Source: Nitrospirales bacterium (GTDB lineage: Bacteria; Nitrospirota; Nitrospiria; Nitrospirales; UBA8639). From it: 64,000 nucleotides of DNA. Numbering within the stretch: position 1 is the first letter of the stretch; each line of letters starts with the position of its first letter. The stretch is from the NCBI GenBank assembly GCA_021604005.1, contig BQIV01000008.1, positions 1-64,000 on the forward strand. The letters are read 5' to 3'. Positions 3,774 through 48,437 of this stretch are shown here, piece after piece. The notes below the pieces were generated by a model that was not told the DNA's origin, made no database searches, and worked only from the letters and a program-made list of their open reading frames with translations. The position numbers were made by a program, and so were the translations under genes.

Positions 3774-5182
3774 GTCAGGCCTCCATCCGTGTCCGGCTGA
3801 CGCTCTGGTATGGCACTGCCTTAGCGCTTATTCTCATTCTGTTTGCCGGAACCATCTATTTTGTCATCTCGCGTGGCTTGCGAGACCAAGTCGATGCGTC
3901 TCTTGAGGAAGCCGCGTCTGTGGCCATTCGGACGTTAGGGGAACACCGATTTGGTCCATTTTTAATATTTGAAGATCTCTCGCAAAACTTTCCTGAACTC
4001 GCCTTGCTGGATAAGTTCTTTCAGATTTTCGGTCCTGCCGGACAGGTCACTATTCAATCCGCAAACATTAAAAGCCGTGAAATTCCATTAAGCCAAACGG
4101 CGTTTCAAGCATCGTTGAAAGGACAAGCCACCTTCGAGTCCGTTCGGTTTGATGAGGGGGTTCCGTTCCGACTGCTCTCCGTTCCCATCCGGCATACGGA
4201 GCGTCTTGTGAGTATTTTGCGTGTGGGCACGTCCCTCTATCCTACTGAAAAAATGTTACAGCGCTTACTGCTTGCTCTCGTGATCGCTTCGCCAATTGCG
4301 ATTATTGTGTCGCTGTTGGGCGGATGGTTTTTGGCCGGTCGAGCCTTGATGCCGGTGAATGTCATTACGTGTGCGGCTCAGCGTATCGCCGATGGCGATT
4401 TGACTCAACGAATTACGAGTCCTCGGTCAAGTGACGAAATCGGGCGTTTGGCTTCGGTGTTTAATGATATGATCGCGCGTCTCGAAATCTCGTTTCGGCA
4501 AATACGTCAATTTAGTGCCGATGCCTCTCATGAGCTTCGGACACCCTTGACAATCACCAAGGGTGAAACCGAGCTGGCCTTGCGCCGGCCGCGCGAGGCG
4601 GATGATTACCGTCAAGTCCTAGAGAGTAACTTGGAAGAAATCGATCGCATGAGCCGGATTGTCGATGAATTGCTATTTCTCTCTCGTGCCGATTTGGGTG
4701 AGATTAAAATGACCATGTCTCCAATTTCATTGGACAGTTTAGTTCGAGAAGTTCAACTGCAGGCAACGATTCTTGGCCAAGATCGACAGATTGAAACAAT
4801 CTTAGGGACTGTTGAGCCAATTGTTGTCGATGGAGATGAACTTCGACTTCGGGAATTACTCTTGAATCTTGTCGATAACGCGATTAAATATTCCCATCCC
4901 AATTCTCAGGTGGAATTATCCCTGAGACAGATCGACGCTCAGGCAGAGTTGAAGGTGTGTGATCACGGGATTGGTGTGTCTGATCTGGAACAGCAACGAA
5001 TCTTTGACCGCTTCTATCGGACGGATACGGCTCGCGCGCATGCCTCAAAGGGAACGGGGTTGGGATTGGCCATCTGTCAATGGATTGTTGATGTGCATCA
5101 AGGAACGATCCAGATGCAAAGTTCTCCAGGCGCTGGGTCATGTTTTACCGTCTTGCTTCCGCTTCGTGCCCCTGTTGTGTAA
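3770..5182 (+). CDS. sensor histidine kinase, HAMP type
   Basis: Membrane sensor partner of the preceding regulator, 470 residues. Two transmembrane helices (about 12-34 and 163-188) enclose a periplasmic sensor of about 130 residues. HAMP follows, then the dimerisation/phosphotransfer domain with the H-box ASHELRTPLT (His254), and a C-terminal ATPase with N-box LVDNAIKYS, G1 DHGIGV and G2 GTGLGLAI. The start ATG overlaps the regulator's stop. The periplasmic domain has no metal-binding motif I can recognise, so the signal is unknown. A second sigma-70 gene follows 285 bases later. Confidence 0.94.
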   Translation: MSQASIRVRLTLWYGTALALILILFAGTIYFVISRGLRDQVDASLEEAASVAIRTLGEHRFGPFLIFEDLSQNFPELALLDKFFQIFGPAGQVTIQSANIKSREIPLSQTAFQASLKGQATFESVRFDEGVPFRLLSVPIRHTERLVSILRVGTSLYPTEKMLQRLLLALVIASPIAIIVSLLGGWFLAGRALMPVNVITCAAQRIADGDLTQRITSPRSSDEIGRLASVFNDMIARLEISFRQIRQFSADASHELRTPLTITKGETELALRRPREADDYRQVLESNLEEIDRMSRIVDELLFLSRADLGEIKMTMSPISLDSLVREVQLQATILGQDRQIETILGTVEPIVVDGDELRLRELLLNLVDNAIKYSHPNSQVELSLRQIDAQAELKVCDHGIGVSDLEQQRIFDRFYRTDTARAHASKGTGLGLAICQWIVDVHQGTIQMQSSPGAGSCFTVLLPLRAPVV

Positions 5183-5467
5183 CCACGTCTTTGCCTCACT
5201 CCCAGTACATTAACAATTTTTAATGTGCGCTTAATCCTCCTTTCATTTCTGGTGGGTATAAGATAGCTGATGTCTAGTAAGGAAGAGCGTCTGTCACAGG
5301 AATCAGCATCTTTGCCCACGATGGCATACTTGGAGAATGAACCTCGTGTTGCAAGTTCCATTGATCATGGATGGTGAAGGAGTCAACGAGTCGGCAAATC
5401 CTAAACGTAGTACACAAGAATGGCTACAGGGAATTGGGCACGCGTGCTACATGAAAGGGGAATATGT

Positions 5468-6727
5468 ATGAATATCGTAACAGATCGTCAAGGTTCGAGA
5501 AGTGTCAAGGCACAACACCATACAGCGTATGACAGACGTCGAGAAGATGAAGGTGTTATAGGACACGCTGTTTCCCGAAAGCGTCCACAACGAACAGGGA
5601 GAAAAGAGGACGGTGTGTTTGAGAACGTCGCACTCCCAAATAGTGAAGGATCGGTTAGTCTCGAGACCGTATATTTTCGCGATTTTCGATCACGGCCACT
5701 TCTTGATCCCGACGCCGAATTGTATTTAGCCAAACAGCTGCATCACGGAACGTCGGCCATTCGAGATATATTACGCCAAGCGATTACTCTCACCAAAAGC
5801 TGGGAGTCGAATCAGGACGTTATGCAACTCTCGAAACGATTCAGCGAAATCGCCGAGTTAAGCGGGTTGTCGGCGCCGATTATTGATGAGATTACCGACT
5901 CCCTTCAGCAATTACATCACATTGTCAAAACGCACCATCCGAAAGACGTGGAACGTGTGACGTGCATAGCTCAACTTCAGAAACAGGTAGAACATGCACG
6001 GCAACAGGTTGAACGTGCAAAGGATGAACTGGTTCAGCGAAATCTACGCCTTGTCATTGATATTGCGAAACGTTATCTCAATCGCGGCCTCGGGTTTCTC
6101 GATTTAGTTCAAGAAGGCAATATCGGGTTGATGAAAGCCGCCGAGCGATTCGATTTTCAACGTGGGTTTAAGTTCAGTACCTATGCGACATGGTGGGTTC
6201 GACAAGGTATTACCCGTGCCGTGGCTGATCAATCCCGTACGATTCGCGTGCCCGTTCATACAACCGAAGCCTCGAATCGAATCGCGAGAATGATGCAAAA
6301 ATTGGCTCAGCAATTTGATCGCGAGGCGAGTTATGATGAGCTAGGCCGTGAGTTGGGAATGAGCCGGGAGCGAGTCAAAGAGACGCTGCAAGCCTTTCAG
6401 GAGCCCATTTCGTTAGATGCAACACCGGTCGATGGAGATGGCCAACTTGGTGATCTGATTCCTGATCTCGATGCCATGCCTCCTGATGTCGAGATCGACC
6501 AAAAAAGAACGACCGAACATCTCGAGCGAATTTTACAAATCCTGTCGCCACGGGAACAACAAGTGGTTCGTTTGCGGTTCGGTATTGGGCAAGATGAACC
6601 GTGGACCTTGGAACAGGTGGGGCGAAGCCTTTCTGTCACGCGTGAACGGATACGGCAAATTGAGGGTGTCGCCCTCAAAAAACTCAAAGAGCCTCACGTG
6701 AAAGCTCAGCTCATGGCATTACGATGA
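5468..6727 (+). CDS. sigma-70 family RNA polymerase sigma factor, group 2 type
   Basis: 419 residues with sigma regions 1.2 (VYFRDFRSRPLLDPDAELYLAKQL), 2 (NLRLVIDIAKRYLNRGLGFLDL onward, with TYATWWVRQGITRAVADQSRTIR), 3 and 4 (LSPREQQVVRLRFGIG, then the [19 protein letters not shown]). It lacks the long non-conserved region of primary sigma factors and has a basic N-terminus, so it is probably a stationary-phase or stress type factor (RpoS-like or SigB-like by architecture). The ORF opens at 5420, but ATG 5468 is preceded by AAAGGGG seven bases away and is the better start. Which regulon it serves is unknown. Its position behind a two-component pair may be coincidental. Confidence 0.92.
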   Translation: MNIVTDRQGSRSVKAQHHTAYDRRREDEGVIGHAVSRKRPQRTGRKEDGVFENVALPNSEGSVSLETVYFRDFRSRPLLDPDAELYLAKQLHHGTSAIRDILRQAITLTKSWESNQDVMQLSKRFSEIAELSGLSAPIIDEITDSLQQLHHIVKTHHPKDVERVTCIAQLQKQVEHARQQVERAKDELVQRNLRLVIDIAKRYLNRGLGFLDLVQEGNIGLMKAAERFDFQRGFKFSTYATWWVRQGITRAVADQSRTIRVPVHTTEASNRIARMMQKLAQQFDREASYDELGRELGMSRERVKETLQAFQEPISLDATPVDGDGQLGDLIPDLDAMPPDVEIDQKRTTEHLERILQILSPREQQVVRLRFGIGQDEPWTLEQVGRSLSVTRERIRQIEGVALKKLKEPHVKAQLMALR

Positions 6728-41528: not shown

Positions 41529-41742
41529 GTCTGAAAATGAGAATGCGTCTTTGGGGGTGGTTTGTGGCTTGAACATCCTGGTGAATACCGTGATAATGGG
41601 TATATCGCGGTCCGTGTTATAGACGTTTCACATAGCTTCTGCTGGTTGGAAACGTTGCACCGCGTCCGGTGGAGTGCTCATTTTCTATTAAGAACATATT
41701 GGAATTCGCTATAATTACCTCTGTTGTGAATTGGATACTGGT
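41529..41742. other. upstream region of the proteasome operon
   Basis: 214 bases between a terminator and the ATPase gene should hold the operon promoter. No clear -35/-10 pair was assigned. The ribosome site for ATG 41743 is weak. Confidence 0.4.
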
Positions 41743-43509
41743 ATGAGTGATCGTGATCCGCGTGCCGATAGTCAGCCCCGTCCTCGTTCGTCTACACATC
41801 AAGCTGGTTCTTCTCGTGTTTCAGCTCAGCCCAGTCCGCTTGCTTTGCTTGATGAATGTTTAGCCTCTATGCCAGAAGGCGATCATCGGATAGCTGTGCT
41901 TGGGAAGCTCAAGCAACTTATGTTGCAGCAAGGTGTGGAGCAGCAGCAACGTGAGATGGAAGTCAATAAACTGAATACCGTTGTCGAAAAGTTAACGGCA
42001 CCAGCTAATCGAATTGGCACGCTTGTCGATTTACCGGAAGATGATATGGCACGGATCATTGTCGGTGGAAGTGAATTTTATGCCAATATCGATCCTCGGC
42101 TTGAGCGTGCAGACTTACTGATTGGTTCGCAAGTGCTGGTGAATGAAGCCTACGTGGTCATTCGGTCGTTAGGGTACGATGTGAATGGTCCAATTCTCAA
42201 AGTTCGTGAAGTGCTGGCTGACGGACGGCTGCGAATGGATCAAGAGCCGGGTCGTCCGGGTATACTGTTACAACGAGCGGCCGAGTTACGCGACACAGAA
42301 TTCAAGCCGGGGGATGAAGTGCGTGTTGACCCGACGCTGAGGCTGGTGATTGAACGACTTGAGAAGTCGCACACGGAAGGACATGTCCTTGATGAAGTGC
42401 CATCGGTGACGTGGGAGCACATTGGTGGTCAGAAGAAGGCCATTGCCGCGATTCGGCGAGCAATCGAATATCCTCTCCTTCACCGTCAAACCTTTCAACA
42501 GTATCAATTTACACAACCCAAAGGATTTTTACTTCATGGACCTCCGGGGTGTGGCAAGACATTGATTGGACAGGCCACGGCGGCTAGCTTGGCGCAATTA
42601 GTCAAAGCGAAGGCTGAGGCCATGACGGGCGATCAGTTCCACGGGAGTGGCAGGAATAGCTTTCCTCCGATAGAGCGAGGGAGTTTTCTCCATGTCAAAG
42701 GGCCTGAGGTGCTGAATATGTGGGTTGGCGAGTCTGAGCGAATTGTACGAGACCTCTTTGCTCAAGCTCGCGAACGTCGTCAATCCGGCTTCTTGCCGTT
42801 TATTTTTATTGATGAAGCCGAGTCGATCCTTGGTACGAGGCGTGCCGTTCGCTCATACAATGTCGCCAGTACGCTTGTTCCCATGTTTTGTGCGGAGTTA
42901 GATGGAATTGAGTCACTTCATGATGTGGTAGTAATTCTTGCGACAAATCGTCCTGATCTGATTGATCCAGCAGTGTTGCGGTCAGGCAGAATTGATCGAA
43001 AGGTAAAAATATCCCGCCCGAATCGTGAGGCGGCTACCGAGATTCTTCAGATCTACCTGTCTCCTGAAATCCCTCTTCATGCAGATGTTCTCCAAGCCTC
43101 AGACGGGAATTGTGAGTTAGCCCGTCAAACGATGATCACGGCACTTCTAGATCGAGTGTTTGCGCGAACCGAAGAGAACAGGGTTCTAGCTATTCGTTTA
43201 CGAAATGGTCGTCGAGACATCCTCTATCGTTCTGACTTGTTAAGTGGTGCCGTGTTGGCCAGCATCGTCCGTCGAGCGAAGGAAAAAGCTGTGGAACGTG
43301 AGATTGAGGGAAAGGATACAGGAATGTCTGATGAAGATTTATCACATGCTGTGCACGAAGAGTTTCGTGAAGGTGAAATTTTCCCACCAGATGATTCAGC
43401 TGAAGAATGGTTGAAATTACTGGACCATCATCCTGATCAAGTCATCGGCGTTTCGTCGTTTCGGGGTGAATCCTCAACGATCGAACGTGCCATCCATACG
43501 ATTATTTAA
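41743..43509 (+). CDS. arc: proteasome-activating AAA ATPase (ARC/Mpa)
   Basis: Hexameric unfoldase that recognises Pup-tagged proteins and feeds them to the 20S proteasome. 588 residues: a coiled-coil N-terminus (about 35-85), tandem OB domains (about 90-210), then one AAA domain with Walker A GPPGCGKT (266-273), Walker B FIFIDEAES (Asp357-Glu358) and SRH arginine residues in TNRPDLIDPAVLRSGRIDRK. The insertion with the pore-proximal segment (AEAMTGDQFHGSG) is present. The C-terminus ends IERAIHTII and lacks the GQYL tail that docks Mpa to the proteasome in actinobacteria. First gene of the operon; dop starts four bases after its stop. TTG 41731 is an alternative start. Confidence 0.94.
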   Translation: MSDRDPRADSQPRPRSSTHQAGSSRVSAQPSPLALLDECLASMPEGDHRIAVLGKLKQLMLQQGVEQQQREMEVNKLNTVVEKLTAPANRIGTLVDLPEDDMARIIVGGSEFYANIDPRLERADLLIGSQVLVNEAYVVIRSLGYDVNGPILKVREVLADGRLRMDQEPGRPGILLQRAAELRDTEFKPGDEVRVDPTLRLVIERLEKSHTEGHVLDEVPSVTWEHIGGQKKAIAAIRRAIEYPLLHRQTFQQYQFTQPKGFLLHGPPGCGKTLIGQATAASLAQLVKAKAEAMTGDQFHGSGRNSFPPIERGSFLHVKGPEVLNMWVGESERIVRDLFAQARERRQSGFLPFIFIDEAESILGTRRAVRSYNVASTLVPMFCAELDGIESLHDVVVILATNRPDLIDPAVLRSGRIDRKVKISRPNREAATEILQIYLSPEIPLHADVLQASDGNCELARQTMITALLDRVFARTEENRVLAIRLRNGRRDILYRSDLLSGAVLASIVRRAKEKAVEREIEGKDTGMSDEDLSHAVHEEFREGEIFPPDDSAEEWLKLLDHHPDQVIGVSSFRGESSTIERAIHTII

Positions 43510-43513
43510 CACG

Positions 43514-45037
43514 ATGTCCACTTCGCTGAGACTCTTTGGTCTAGAAACCGAGTATGGAATTACCCGAGAGGATCAGCGTGATGTTGATCCTGTGGTCGAG
43601 TCCATGGAATTGGTTCGTGCACATATTCATGGTGAATTTGAACAACAGTGGGACTATCGTGGCGAAGATCCTCATGCAGATCAGCGTGGCTTTCGAGTCT
43701 CTGGTTTGCAGCAGGATAAAGAGGAAGAAGAGTTTGTACAGGAAGATGCTCTGCGCTCATTGTCCTTTTACGAGATGAAGAGCGATTTAATCTTACGTAA
43801 CGGAGCCAGGTTTTATAACGATCATACCCATCCAGAGTATTCAACTCCCGAATGTCGAACGCTGCGTGACCTTGTGGCCCATGACCGAGCAGGCGAACGC
43901 ATCGTGCAACAGGCTGCGGATCGCCGCAATCGGGACCTTGGCAGTCCAGCCGTACAACTCTATAAAAATAATACTGACTTTCACGGCCATAGTTATGGCT
44001 GTCATGATAACTACTTGGTTGCTCGCGCTATCCCGTTTTCTGAATTACAAGCCGCACTGATTCCCTTTTTAGTCAGTCGTCAAGTGATAGCCGGTGCAGG
44101 AAAAATTGGAATGGAAAAGCAAGAGCAGGGGTATCGGCCTGGAGGCTTTCAATTATCACAACGTGCGGATTTCATGGAGGTAGCGCTTGGTGTCGATACC
44201 ATGTTTAATCGGTCGATATTAAATACACGTGATGAACCCCATGCCGATCGCGAAACGTACCGCCGTCTCCATTTGATTGTTGGTGATGCGAATATGTGTG
44301 AGTATGCGACCGCACTCAAAATTGGCACGACCCGTCTCGTGTTGGATTTAATTAGTCAGCATGTTGCACCGGTTGTGGAGCTAGAGAACCCGGTCCAGGC
44401 TATTCAAGCGTTCTCGCGAGATCCAGAGCTCAAGACTGTTGTGACTCGGACGCATGGCGCTCCGGTTTCGGCTTGCCACATCCAAGCACTCTATTTAGAC
44501 GCGGCTCAAAAGGCATTGGCCGGGCTCGATGAAGAAACAGACTGGATTCTGGCCGAATGGGAGCGCGTGCTGACACTCTTGGAACAAGACCGTCGGGCAT
44601 TGGTTGGTGTCTTAGACTGGGTGACCAAATTGTCGTTACTCGAGCGTTTTCGGCAAGAGGAACAGTTGGAATGGTCCGATCCTTGGCTTGTCAGTTTGGA
44701 TCTTGAATATCACAATGTGAATCCCGAACGTGGGTTGTATTTAGGGGTAGAGGCCGAAGGACAGGGCAAACGCTTGTGTTGTGAAGACGACATACTGATG
44801 GCGATGAATGAGGGGCCTGCCGATACGCGAGGCGGCATTCGAGGTGTGTGTGTCAGACGATTTGGGCCGCAGATACAGGCAGTACAGTGGGAGCGTATCC
44901 AATTTACGCCGGAGGCTGGCAGATCACAGATTCTTGATTTGAATCATGCCGTTGACCCCACGGCAGTTAAGGCTATCAGATCAGCTCTTGATAGGGCTGA
45001 GAATCTTTCCGATGTGGGAATGTTATCAACGAGATAG
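43514..45037 (+). CDS. dop: depupylase/deamidase Dop
   Basis: Removes Pup-type modifiers from substrates (and deamidates Pup where it ends in Gln). 507 residues in the glutamine-synthetase-like ligase fold, with GLETEYG at the N-terminus, GARFYNDHTHPEYSTPEC (Asp103), LYKNNTDFHG, QLSQRADFMEV and NTRDEPHADR. Told apart from PafA by the early insertion (about residues 46-85, including a run of Glu), which corresponds to the Dop loop, and by the order arc-dop-pup-prcB-prcA-pafA. The start ATG 43514 is four bases after arc; a longer start at 43466 would overlap arc. Confidence 0.93.
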   Translation: MSTSLRLFGLETEYGITREDQRDVDPVVESMELVRAHIHGEFEQQWDYRGEDPHADQRGFRVSGLQQDKEEEEFVQEDALRSLSFYEMKSDLILRNGARFYNDHTHPEYSTPECRTLRDLVAHDRAGERIVQQAADRRNRDLGSPAVQLYKNNTDFHGHSYGCHDNYLVARAIPFSELQAALIPFLVSRQVIAGAGKIGMEKQEQGYRPGGFQLSQRADFMEVALGVDTMFNRSILNTRDEPHADRETYRRLHLIVGDANMCEYATALKIGTTRLVLDLISQHVAPVVELENPVQAIQAFSRDPELKTVVTRTHGAPVSACHIQALYLDAAQKALAGLDEETDWILAEWERVLTLLEQDRRALVGVLDWVTKLSLLERFRQEEQLEWSDPWLVSLDLEYHNVNPERGLYLGVEAEGQGKRLCCEDDILMAMNEGPADTRGGIRGVCVRRFGPQIQAVQWERIQFTPEAGRSQILDLNHAVDPTAVKAIRSALDRAENLSDVGMLSTR

Positions 45038-45048
45038 AGAGGACACAT

Positions 45049-45294
45049 ATGATGAAGATGATACAGGAAACTCATGCTCGAACATTCATGCTGAATGCAT
45101 TATCACATCCAATTGGACTGGAACGACGGGAGCAACCGAGTCATCCACTTCCCAGGCCTTTAGGACCATCGGAAGATGGCGGCGGGCCCAAGCGGCCCGA
45201 TACCGAGTCGGCTGAAAAGGATAATCTATTAAAACGTATGCGCAAGGTTGATCCCAAGCAAGCCGAGCGTTACCGACAACGGACAGGGGAATAG
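45049..45294 (+). CDS. pup: prokaryotic ubiquitin-like modifier (Pup/UBact)
   Basis: 81 residues, acidic and basic mix with no globular domain, typical of Pup. The C-terminus is RYRQRTGE. Pup is attached through its C-terminal Glu to substrate lysines; ending in Glu rather than Gln means PafA can use it directly without deamidation. Gram-negative Pup-like proteins of this form, from Nitrospirota and other phyla, have been described as UBact. Ribosome site GAGAGGA; ATG 45049 or 45052. It lies between dop and prcB, and its stop TAG overlaps the next start (TAGTGATG). The N-terminus is His/Pro/Gly-rich and poorly conserved. Confidence 0.92.
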   Translation: MMKMIQETHARTFMLNALSHPIGLERREQPSHPLPRPLGPSEDGGGPKRPDTESAEKDNLLKRMRKVDPKQAERYRQRTGE

Positions 45295-46109
45295 TGATGG
45301 TGGGACGACACGGCGATTTCATGCACATGTTGCGAGAGCACGGGTATTCATTTGATCCATTGCACGTGGCTCAAACACAGGGGGCTTCTTCCCAAAGCGG
45401 TCATCATGTTCAACACTCCATGATGACCCAAGGGACGACGGTTCTTGCGTTTAAGTATCAGGATGGTGTGATCGTTGGCGGAGACCGTCGAGCGACTGCG
45501 GGGATGACGGTCATGTATGATCGAACGGATAAAGTCTTGGAACTTGACAGGTTTTGCGTCATGGCGATTGCCGGGGTTCCCGCCACCGCATTCGAAATGG
45601 CACGAATCCTTGAACATTCATTTAAATACTATCGACGAAGTCAGCTTCAAGACTTGAGTTTTGAAGGCAAGCTCCGGGCGTTGACCAAACTCCTCAAAGA
45701 AAATGCCCCGGCCGCCATTGCTGGGACCGGGACCGTGGCCCCGGTATTTGCCGGGTTTGACCTGGATGCACAGGAGGGAAAGATTTTCTTTTACGATATT
45801 CTCGGGGCTGAGTTTGAAGGAGTTGACTATGCCGTCTCTGGATCTGGGTCGCCGACCATTCGTGGGATTCTTCATTACTTACACCGGTGGGGACAGACGC
45901 CTCTCTATCAACTTCCTGAGGAAGATGCCATCGTGTTGCTTATGCGTCTGTTGAGTAGTGCGGCTGAATTTGATGCGGCGACAGGCGGGATTAATTATGA
46001 GGCAAACCTCTTTCCGATTGTCAAACGTATTTCCTCGAATGGGGTGGAGCCTATTGCTCCTGAACGCTTACAAACTCTCTGTGCGTCGCAGGTGATGCGT
46101 TATGTATGA
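45294..46109 (+). CDS. prcB: proteasome beta subunit, catalytic
   Basis: The peptidase ring of the 20S proteasome. 271 residues including a propeptide of about 47 ending G-TTVLAFKY; self-cleavage exposes the catalytic Thr48. Conserved Asp and Lys of the active site are in GGDRRATAG and TDKVLELD. GSGSPTIRGILHYL and AAEFDAATGG are family-typical. The GTG at 45294 overlaps the pup stop; ATG 45297 is the alternative. It overlaps prcA by eight bases. Confidence 0.95.
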   Translation: MMVGRHGDFMHMLREHGYSFDPLHVAQTQGASSQSGHHVQHSMMTQGTTVLAFKYQDGVIVGGDRRATAGMTVMYDRTDKVLELDRFCVMAIAGVPATAFEMARILEHSFKYYRRSQLQDLSFEGKLRALTKLLKENAPAAIAGTGTVAPVFAGFDLDAQEGKIFFYDILGAEFEGVDYAVSGSGSPTIRGILHYLHRWGQTPLYQLPEEDAIVLLMRLLSSAAEFDAATGGINYEANLFPIVKRISSNGVEPIAPERLQTLCASQVMRYV

Positions 46110-46929
46110 AGAGCCGTATCGCTGGATTGAAGCGGTTGGAAATCGTCGTCAATATTTGGATGAACAATTTAAGCAAGGCAGTCCGGTGGTTGCGCTTTCC
46201 TGTGATGAGGGGATTGTGCTTGTGAGCGCGAGTCGTGGGACGCCAAAACTCTATGAAATCTATGATCGTATCGCGTTGGGGGGCATGGGACATCCCGCTG
46301 ATTTGGAAAAACTGAGGTTTCAATTATTGGACATGGCCCATCTTGAAGGCTTTACTCGCTCGCCATCCGATGTGACAGGGGCTCGACTCTTGAAAAACGG
46401 TCTGGCTCCAACGGTGAAGCAAGCCTTTGAGGAAATATTCAAAGCTCCGTTTATCGCCAAAATACTGTTGGCTGAATTAGGTGCAACTCGGGAGAAAGAC
46501 CGGTTTCTTACAATCGATTATGATGGAACGTTTGAAGAAACGAACATCTGCTCACTCCTGGCCGGCACTCGTGCGATTCACACACCACTGTTCGATGAAC
46601 TCAGAAATAGAATTGGAGCGTCCGTTCCTTCTCTCAAAGAAGGAATTGATATGGCCGTGAGGGTGTGGGCGAAAGGATCGTTGTTGCATACGACCATCTC
46701 TTCCGATGCGAACAGTCATGAGATACCGGCAGAGGGACAAGAGAAGGGAGAATCCATGCCCGACTTTGATGACGAGGACGTGCAACGTCATGCACGGCAG
46801 CAGTTTGCCGATGTGACACTCGAATGTTCTCTCATCGATCGTCGTCTGTCTGGATCATCGAAGTACCGTGTTCTGTCTGACGATGAAGTGACTCGCCTCC
46901 TTCCACCGGCGTTGCAACCCGTTCGATAA
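46102..46929 (+). CDS. prcA: proteasome alpha subunit, structural
   Basis: Forms the outer rings and gate of the 20S proteasome. 275 residues with the alpha-type fold (VVALSCDEGIVLVSASRGTPKLYEIYDRIALGGMG) and no catalytic threonine. The N-terminus MYEEPYRW is the gating segment. The C-terminus extends in an acidic loop (EGQEKGESMPDFDDEDVQ) beyond the core. It starts eight bases before the end of prcB, and pafA follows 29 bases later. Confidence 0.93.
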   Translation: MYEEPYRWIEAVGNRRQYLDEQFKQGSPVVALSCDEGIVLVSASRGTPKLYEIYDRIALGGMGHPADLEKLRFQLLDMAHLEGFTRSPSDVTGARLLKNGLAPTVKQAFEEIFKAPFIAKILLAELGATREKDRFLTIDYDGTFEETNICSLLAGTRAIHTPLFDELRNRIGASVPSLKEGIDMAVRVWAKGSLLHTTISSDANSHEIPAEGQEKGESMPDFDDEDVQRHARQQFADVTLECSLIDRRLSGSSKYRVLSDDEVTRLLPPALQPVR

Positions 46930-46958
46930 TTCTTCATTCATGACACGAAAGCTTGTTC

Positions 46959-48437
46959 ATGTTACATCGTATTTTTGGAATTGAAACCGAGTATGGGCTT
47001 CTGATTAACCAGGAACAACCTGATCGTCCTCCCTCATGGATTGCCCATCAAATTATCGATCACTTGTTCCGGACGAAACGGGCTGGCGTGCTGGATCTGC
47101 ATCACCGTGGTTATGATGAACCACCCGGCAATGGTGGATTTCTCTTGAATGGTGGGCGGATGTATGTCGATATGGGGCATCTGGAGTTTGCCTCTCCTGA
47201 GTGCCATTCGTTGCGAGATCTCGTGGCGTCCGATCGTGCTGGTGATTGGTTGCTTCAAGATGCCATTGAAGAGCTAGGGTTGTCCGAAAATGTATCAGTG
47301 ATTAAAAATAATATTGACCATGAAACCGACGCGACATTTGGATGTCATGAAAATTATTTAGTCTCTCGAAATTTTCCCTTTAGCTATAACGGATTGGGCA
47401 AACTCATTCCATTTTTAGTCACGCGGCAGATTTTTACGGGGGCAGGACGCATTGGCGCAACGGAAAATATCGATGGATGGATTCCTCTTGAACAATTATC
47501 ACGTGAGCCAGATTTACTACAGCAGCCTTCGAATCGTCTGACCATACCCTATCAGATTTCTCAGCGAGCGGATTATATCGTTAATGATTTCTTTGAATGG
47601 GTGCAGCATAATCGAGCCATTATCAATACACGTGATGAGCCACTGGCAGACCCCACGCAATTCCGCCGTATTCATTTACTGGTTGGAGACTCAAACCTTT
47701 CTGAAATTGCGACGGCTTTGAAGATGGGAACAACCGGACTCGTCCTGCAACTTATTGAAGATGGGCATGCGCCGAACGGATTGGATTTCACTGATCCCGT
47801 CGAGGCGTTACGACAGGTCTCTCGCGATCAGGAACGAACATGGATGCTCACGTTGGCAACAGGAGAAACGCTGTCTGCGATCGACATTCAAGAACGTTTT
47901 TTGGAATGTGCACAGACACAGTATCAGGGGCAAGATGAAGAAACCGATTGGATCTTGCAGGAATGGGAAGAGGTCTTACGCGATCTGCGAGGTGATTATA
48001 CGACGTTGGTAGGACGAGTCGATTGGGCGTCAAAGTTGTGGTTGTTGGAGACTTTCCGCCAGCAAGAACATTTAGCCTGGGAAGATCCGTGGCTCAAAAG
48101 TCTTGACTTGGAATATCACAACGTCGATCCACACAAAGGGTTATATTTTGGACTTATGGACGAAGGGAAAGCACCCTGCGTGACAACTCGCGATGCGATA
48201 GAACTTGCGAAGTATTCTCCCCCACGCGATACCCGCGCGTTTGGTCGAGGAGAAGTTATTCGTTATCTCGCGGATTCTTCTTGGTCTGGCATACAGGAAC
48301 CTGAAGATGAAGCGCGACAATTTCCTCCCTATGTCATTAATTGGTCAGTGTTTCAAGTACGTGGGAGCAAGGCCTTCATCATGCCGGACCCGTTCCGGTC
48401 GTACATTCAGGAAGTTCGAACTCACTTGAAACTTTAA
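46959..48437 (+). CDS. pafA: Pup-protein ligase PafA
   Basis: Attaches the modifier's C-terminal Glu to substrate lysines with ATP. 492 residues: IFGIETEYG near the N-terminus, GGRMYVDMGHLEFASPEC with the catalytic Asp71 and a Pro-to-Leu, Tyr-to-Phe variant of the usual HPEYATPEC, KNNIDHETDATFGCHENY, ISQRADYIV and NTRDEPLADP. It lacks the long early insertion seen in the neighbouring Dop. ATG 46959 is preferred; TTG 46953 is in frame two codons earlier. It ends the operon and converges on the UDP-sugar gene with 16 bases between. Confidence 0.93.
   Translation: MLHRIFGIETEYGLLINQEQPDRPPSWIAHQIIDHLFRTKRAGVLDLHHRGYDEPPGNGGFLLNGGRMYVDMGHLEFASPECHSLRDLVASDRAGDWLLQDAIEELGLSENVSVIKNNIDHETDATFGCHENYLVSRNFPFSYNGLGKLIPFLVTRQIFTGAGRIGATENIDGWIPLEQLSREPDLLQQPSNRLTIPYQISQRADYIVNDFFEWVQHNRAIINTRDEPLADPTQFRRIHLLVGDSNLSEIATALKMGTTGLVLQLIEDGHAPNGLDFTDPVEALRQVSRDQERTWMLTLATGETLSAIDIQERFLECAQTQYQGQDEETDWILQEWEEVLRDLRGDYTTLVGRVDWASKLWLLETFRQQEHLAWEDPWLKSLDLEYHNVDPHKGLYFGLMDEGKAPCVTTRDAIELAKYSPPRDTRAFGRGEVIRYLADSSWSGIQEPEDEARQFPPYVINWSVFQVRGSKAFIMPDPFRSYIQEVRTHLKL

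Follow-up and report, generated by a model that had tools for sequence, protein, structure and literature searches.

The gene cluster considered here raises a question about Dop, the enzyme that in the mycobacterial Pup-proteasome system acts as deamidase and depupylase on a Pup ending in GGQ: what maintains a complete dop gene next to a modifier whose last encoded residue is already Glu? The window, by which we mean the whole 64,000-nucleotide stretch analyzed, belongs to a Nitrospirota genome of 4.7 Mb in 92 contigs, whose nearest named relatives are the Nitrospirales bacteria NPIRA01 and NPIRA04. How Pup ends at its C terminus varies between species (PMC3511204). Pup-Glu is encoded by many of the species that have Pup, from which depupylation has been suggested as the primary role of Dop (PMC12288473, 2025), and the Dop kept by Corynebacterium glutamicum beside a Glu-encoded Pup has been interpreted as a depupylase (PMC3511204, 2012). 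Removal and recycling as the work of Dop alongside Glu-ending Pups is therefore already published, is the standard explanation and is not new. The locus described below allows this explanation to be examined in a different modifier family.

A UBact gene cluster with an encoded terminal Glu

An operon-like row of genes, assigned with Pfam and NCBIfam models, lies on the plus strand of the window in the order ARC ATPase-Dop-UBact-PrcB-PrcA-PafA. The linkage of UBact to Dop/PafA, ARC and 20S genes is thus present at this locus, and the same order was seen again in nearly all relatives fetched. The features are as follows.

41731-43509, plus strand: ARC/Mpa-type proteasomal AAA ATPase, start codon uncertain (TIGR03689 437 bits, PF17758, PF16450; C terminus IHTII)
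43514-45037, plus strand: Dop1, predicted depupylase/deamidase of the UBact system, 507 aa (TIGR03688 472 bits against 363 for PafA; best PDB matches are Dop; model pLDDT 88)
43628-43789, plus strand: Dop-loop of Dop1, about residues 39-92, WDYRGEDPHADQRGFRVSG... (alignment to 4b0r)
43820-43822, plus strand: catalytic Asp103 of Dop1, equivalent to D94 of Acidothermus Dop (alignment; invariant in 103/103 Dop1)
45049-45294, plus strand: UBact modifier, 81 aa, ending RYRQRTGE (PF20513 74 bits, NF033388 77 bits)
45289-45291, plus strand: terminal Glu codon GAA, predicted conjugation residue of UBact (sequence)
45297-46109, plus strand: PrcB, beta subunit of the 20S core, carrying TTVLAF; a GTG at 45294 is an alternative start (TIGR03690 152 bits; motif tally)
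46102-46929, plus strand: PrcA, divergent 20S alpha subunit (TIGR03691 66 bits, PF00227 29 bits)
46953-48437, plus strand: PafA1, presumed UBact ligase, lacking the Dop-loop and the PafA-type catalytic-loop insertion (PF03136 435 bits; alignment)

Positions 45268-45294 translate as RYRQRTGE and a stop, the last codon being GAA followed by TAG. The encoded Glu reported in the preliminary description is thereby confirmed. The modifier scores 74.2 bits with the UBact family PF20513 (cut-off 27.8) and 76.6 bits with the NCBIfam UBact equivalog NF033388 (cut-off 35), and it gave no match to the Pup family PF05639, UBact being the only Pfam family returned; by these models it is classed as UBact, not as canonical Pup. 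It is also the sole frame in the window that ends RTG[E/Q] or GG[E/Q]. A chance open reading frame at this position was ruled out by the family models and the conserved tails.

UBact is carried by 134 of 396 Nitrospirota genomes. All 78 distinct tails share the RTG[E/Q] C terminus (RTGE in the window copy), with near-invariance over the last 16 residues. Position -1 alone varies within the last five, being Glu in 60 and Gln in 18 of these tails, and about a quarter of relatives end in Gln (CAA/CAG). It is the first base that distinguishes a Gln codon from a Glu codon. In Nitrospira sp. YR-XLJ-1 (locus L105), the UBact cluster is partly duplicated in tandem with two UBact genes, which may be an assembly artefact.

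The proteasomal genes of the cluster have features of their own. PrcB carries TTVLAF, which we take to be the motif with the Thr nucleophile. With PF00227, PrcA (46102-46929) scores about 30 bits and is very divergent, compared with 66 bits for the PrcA of the second system described below. A tally of ARC C termini, which took in the window (41731-43509) and locus L117 (11651-13330), showed IHTII at the end of the UBact-system ARC, mostly QII in its relatives, and always HYL or HYF in second-system ARCs. A GQYL/HbYX-like docking motif is absent from the C terminus of the UBact-system ARC.

Conservation of Dop1 and switching of the modifier ending

The alignment of Dop1 with the Dops of Acidothermus and mycobacteria extends along its length. 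Its loop reads WDYRGEDPxxDxRGF, combining the two elements (WDYxxE and DxRGF) by which a Dop-loop was recognized, and is longer than that of Acidothermus Dop. The active-site residues are E11, E13, and D103, and D94, W47, E8, and E10 are invariant in 103/103 UBact-system Dops; a full Dop with its loop insertion and catalytic Asp, as first noticed from the letters alone, is thus present. At positions separating canonical Dop from canonical PafA, Dop1 sides with Dop at 16 and with PafA at 5. Its AlphaFold model matches Dop structures best, at 2.7e-40, against 1.6e-32 for PafA. Because its score with the NCBIfam Dop equivalog TIGR03688 (471.9 bits) lies just below the cut-off of 492.3, Dop1 is not classed as a member of that equivalog but placed in a UBact-type subfamily of Dop.

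Mapped onto a tree built from 98 non-redundant Dops, the UBact ending switches between Glu and Gln at least 17 times, and at least 11 times when well-supported branches alone are counted. The ending clusters on this tree no more than shuffled labels do, that is, without phylogenetic signal, and no column of the Dop1 and PafA1 alignments tracks it better than permuted labels. These results lend no support to the earlier proposal that Dop may be only a depupylase. Because the ending toggles without signal and is followed by no column of Dop or PafA, Dop1 is probably bifunctional still, with its deamidase competence kept; lineages move easily between Glu and Gln, as they should where the local Dop is always able to deamidate.

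In the wider clade to which the window belongs, Glu is the last residue of all 18 UBacts, and a loss of deamidase activity there is therefore possible. Strict specialization, in which Glu became fixed in the window's lineage and Dop1 then lost deamidation to become a pure depupylase, would agree with this uniformity and with the existence of a separate Dop2 that could deamidate the second Pup. It is nevertheless unlikely, considering that both reactions share their chemistry, that Glu and Gln lineages are not told apart by any Dop1 residue, and that relatives ending in Gln have this enzyme too, its catalytic residues unchanged.

The median pairwise dN/dS of Dop1 is 0.081 for 22 Glu-Glu pairs, 0.067 for 7 Gln-Gln pairs, and 0.073 for 14 mixed pairs; the Mann-Whitney p for Glu-Glu vs. 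Gln-Gln is 0.44, and with only seven Gln-Gln pairs there may be a modest relaxation of Dop1 in Glu lineages. The UBact-system ligase gives 0.054-0.059. Dop is equally constrained whatever the UBact ending, implying a function independent of the need for deamidation. That Dop1 is a relic in decay, serving no selected function, could be suspected from the encoded Glu, and from nothing more. This view is contradicted by the selection test (omega about 0.08), by the invariant catalytic residues and by the intact Dop1 in nearly all loci spanning it, all of which make a relic very improbable.

A second, canonical Pup system in the same genome

The genome of the window was searched for modifiers with PF20513, PF05639 and one Pup query. 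The sole PF05639 match, on contig C5, is a canonical Pup ending NYVQKGGQ, and contig C3 carries two further PF03136 enzymes (Dop2 and PafA2) with a second ARC, PrcB, and PrcA, the ARC2 ending GHYF. Contamination as the origin of this Pup was judged unlikely and rejected, its neighboring genes being common to a genome of the same genus and to other members of the family. A second modifier ending in Gln had been named in the preliminary description as the observation that would tell against its reading. Its presence refutes the idea that the cell needs no deamidation: judged from its genes, the cell as a whole does, for Pup-GGQ. What had been claimed of the UBact Dop survives, because contig C3 encodes a Dop2 that belongs to the second Pup.

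Pup is carried by 184 of 396 Nitrospirota genomes and accompanies UBact in 124 of 134 (a hand count from genome lists); most UBact genomes have four PF03136 genes. This wide co-occurrence makes contamination an improbable source of the second cluster as well. Both endings were read in 54 genomes, giving the UBact/Pup pairs Glu/Glu in 40, Gln/Glu in 9, Glu/Gln in 4, including the window genome, and Gln/Gln in 1. Four PF03136 genes are present in 39 of the 40 Glu/Glu genomes, the remaining one being fragmented, with three. This is the cleanest evidence against Dop being there for deamidation alone. From it, and from the equal constraint on Dop1, it follows that Dop is selected for something besides deamidation, most likely depupylation and recycling. 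The proposal that the retained role of Dop is removal of the modifier holds to this extent, removal being the likeliest function; the restriction to removal "only" is unsupported.

Dop is not kept everywhere in the phylum, because a Glu-ending pup with a pafA, downstream of V-type ATPase-like genes, occurs in a 77% complete genome (locus L213, G034:C90, about 4584-6262) with no dop, prcBA, or ARC near it. That genome has one PF03136 gene and one HslV-sized proteasome-family gene, and an ARC-type OB domain was not found in its 77% complete sequence. The position of the canonical pup also differs among families. In Nitrospirales (L117, L118, L159, L167-L173) it lies apart from its enzyme cluster, on another contig in the window genome and, in Ca. 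N. defluvii, at a distance of about 214 kb; in sister families it lies within the cluster, flanked by dop and prcB. A search of the open literature, with the original UBact paper outside its coverage, returned no description of UBact and Pup systems in one genome.

We consider the locus, with a probability of about three in four, to be a UBact conjugation-proteasome operon whose Dop1 is under selection for depupylation and recycling rather than for deamidation but is very probably still a deamidase, in a cell with a separate Pup-GGQ system that has its own Dop2. Translation would yield UBact with a C-terminal Glu, ready for ligation. PafA1 would phosphorylate its gamma-carboxylate and link it to substrate lysines, ARC would pass the conjugates to PrcBA, and Dop1 would cut the isopeptide bond, freeing the substrate and recycling UBact-Glu. 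Deamidation and depupylation by Dop are the same chemistry. For this reason, and because the ending drifts freely from Glu to Gln or back in close relatives, the deamidase reaction of Dop1 is very probably kept, and Dop2 would serve as the deamidase of the second Pup-GGQ system. The sequences themselves show the gene content, the residues, their conservation, the lability of the ending, the selection on Dop and the second system; that the enzymes have these activities, and that each Dop is paired with the modifier of its own system, we infer. Cross-talk, in which Dop1 is maintained at least partly to deamidate Pup-GGQ too or Dop2 serves both modifiers, is conceivable in a genome that encodes both UBact-Glu and Pup-Gln. 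It is even less likely than strict specialization, given the Dop2 that Pup-Gln has for itself, the four enzymes kept in 39/40 genomes with two Glu-ending modifiers, and how strongly UBact and Pup differ in their C-terminal halves.

The presumed ligase and known systems

The ligase role of PafA1 is presumed from its gene position and the missing Dop-loop. Its profile scores are 341 bits for Dop and 325 bits for PafA, the PafA equivalog cut-off being 551, and its alignment shows neither a Dop-loop nor the one-residue catalytic-loop insertion of PafA. In three trees it is placed beside Dop1, apart from PafA2 and C. glutamicum PafA (support 95/93 in the careful tree); PafA1 sits on a long branch, and the conventional PafA arrangement is not rejected by AU tests (p 0.152 and 0.201). 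The top match of its model is the PafA-Pup complex 4bjr, by a small margin, and the model has a helix at the position of PafA's helix, but with pLDDT <50 there. PafA1 (46953-48437) looks like a third PF03136 subfamily, nearer to Dop than to canonical PafA in tree position. We tentatively raise the idea, which we hold to be somewhat doubtful, that PafA1 and canonical PafA are not orthologous and that PafA1 arose separately from a Dop-like hydrolase. If this were true, the switch from hydrolase to ligase would have been made twice in nature. Many cells of Nitrospirota would then operate, in parallel, two Pup-type proteasome systems that had been put together independently.

The UBact system, known from Nitrospirota and further Gram-negative phyla, was reportedly described by Lehmann et al. 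in 2017 (doi 10.1016/j.bbrc.2017.01.037) and is represented in Pfam/NCBIfam. The window shares with it the modifier family, the RTG[E/Q] end, and the cluster with ARC, Dop, PrcB, PrcA, and PafA. There is no difference in kind; what the present analysis measures is the Glu/Gln lability and the co-resident Pup system. C. glutamicum pupylation (PMC3511204) resembles the window in its encoded Glu and retained Dop; however, it uses a canonical Pup without 20S genes, whereas the UBact system of the window has its own. The mycobacterial Pup system shares the enzyme family and is resembled by the second system (Pup KGGQ, Dop2, PafA2, ARC2 GHYF, PrcBA2), which differs from it in that the pup gene is on a separate contig from its enzymes and that a parallel UBact system exists in the same genome.

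Nitrospirota UBact thus provides a natural experiment, in which the last residue flips between Glu and Gln while its surroundings are frozen and Dop remains equally constrained. These flips separate the deamidase role of Dop from its depupylase role, indicating that the encoded ending of UBact is an unreliable sign of the job of Dop. Two complete Pup-type systems, one Glu-ending and one Gln-ending, are encoded in one cell, making their orthogonality directly testable.
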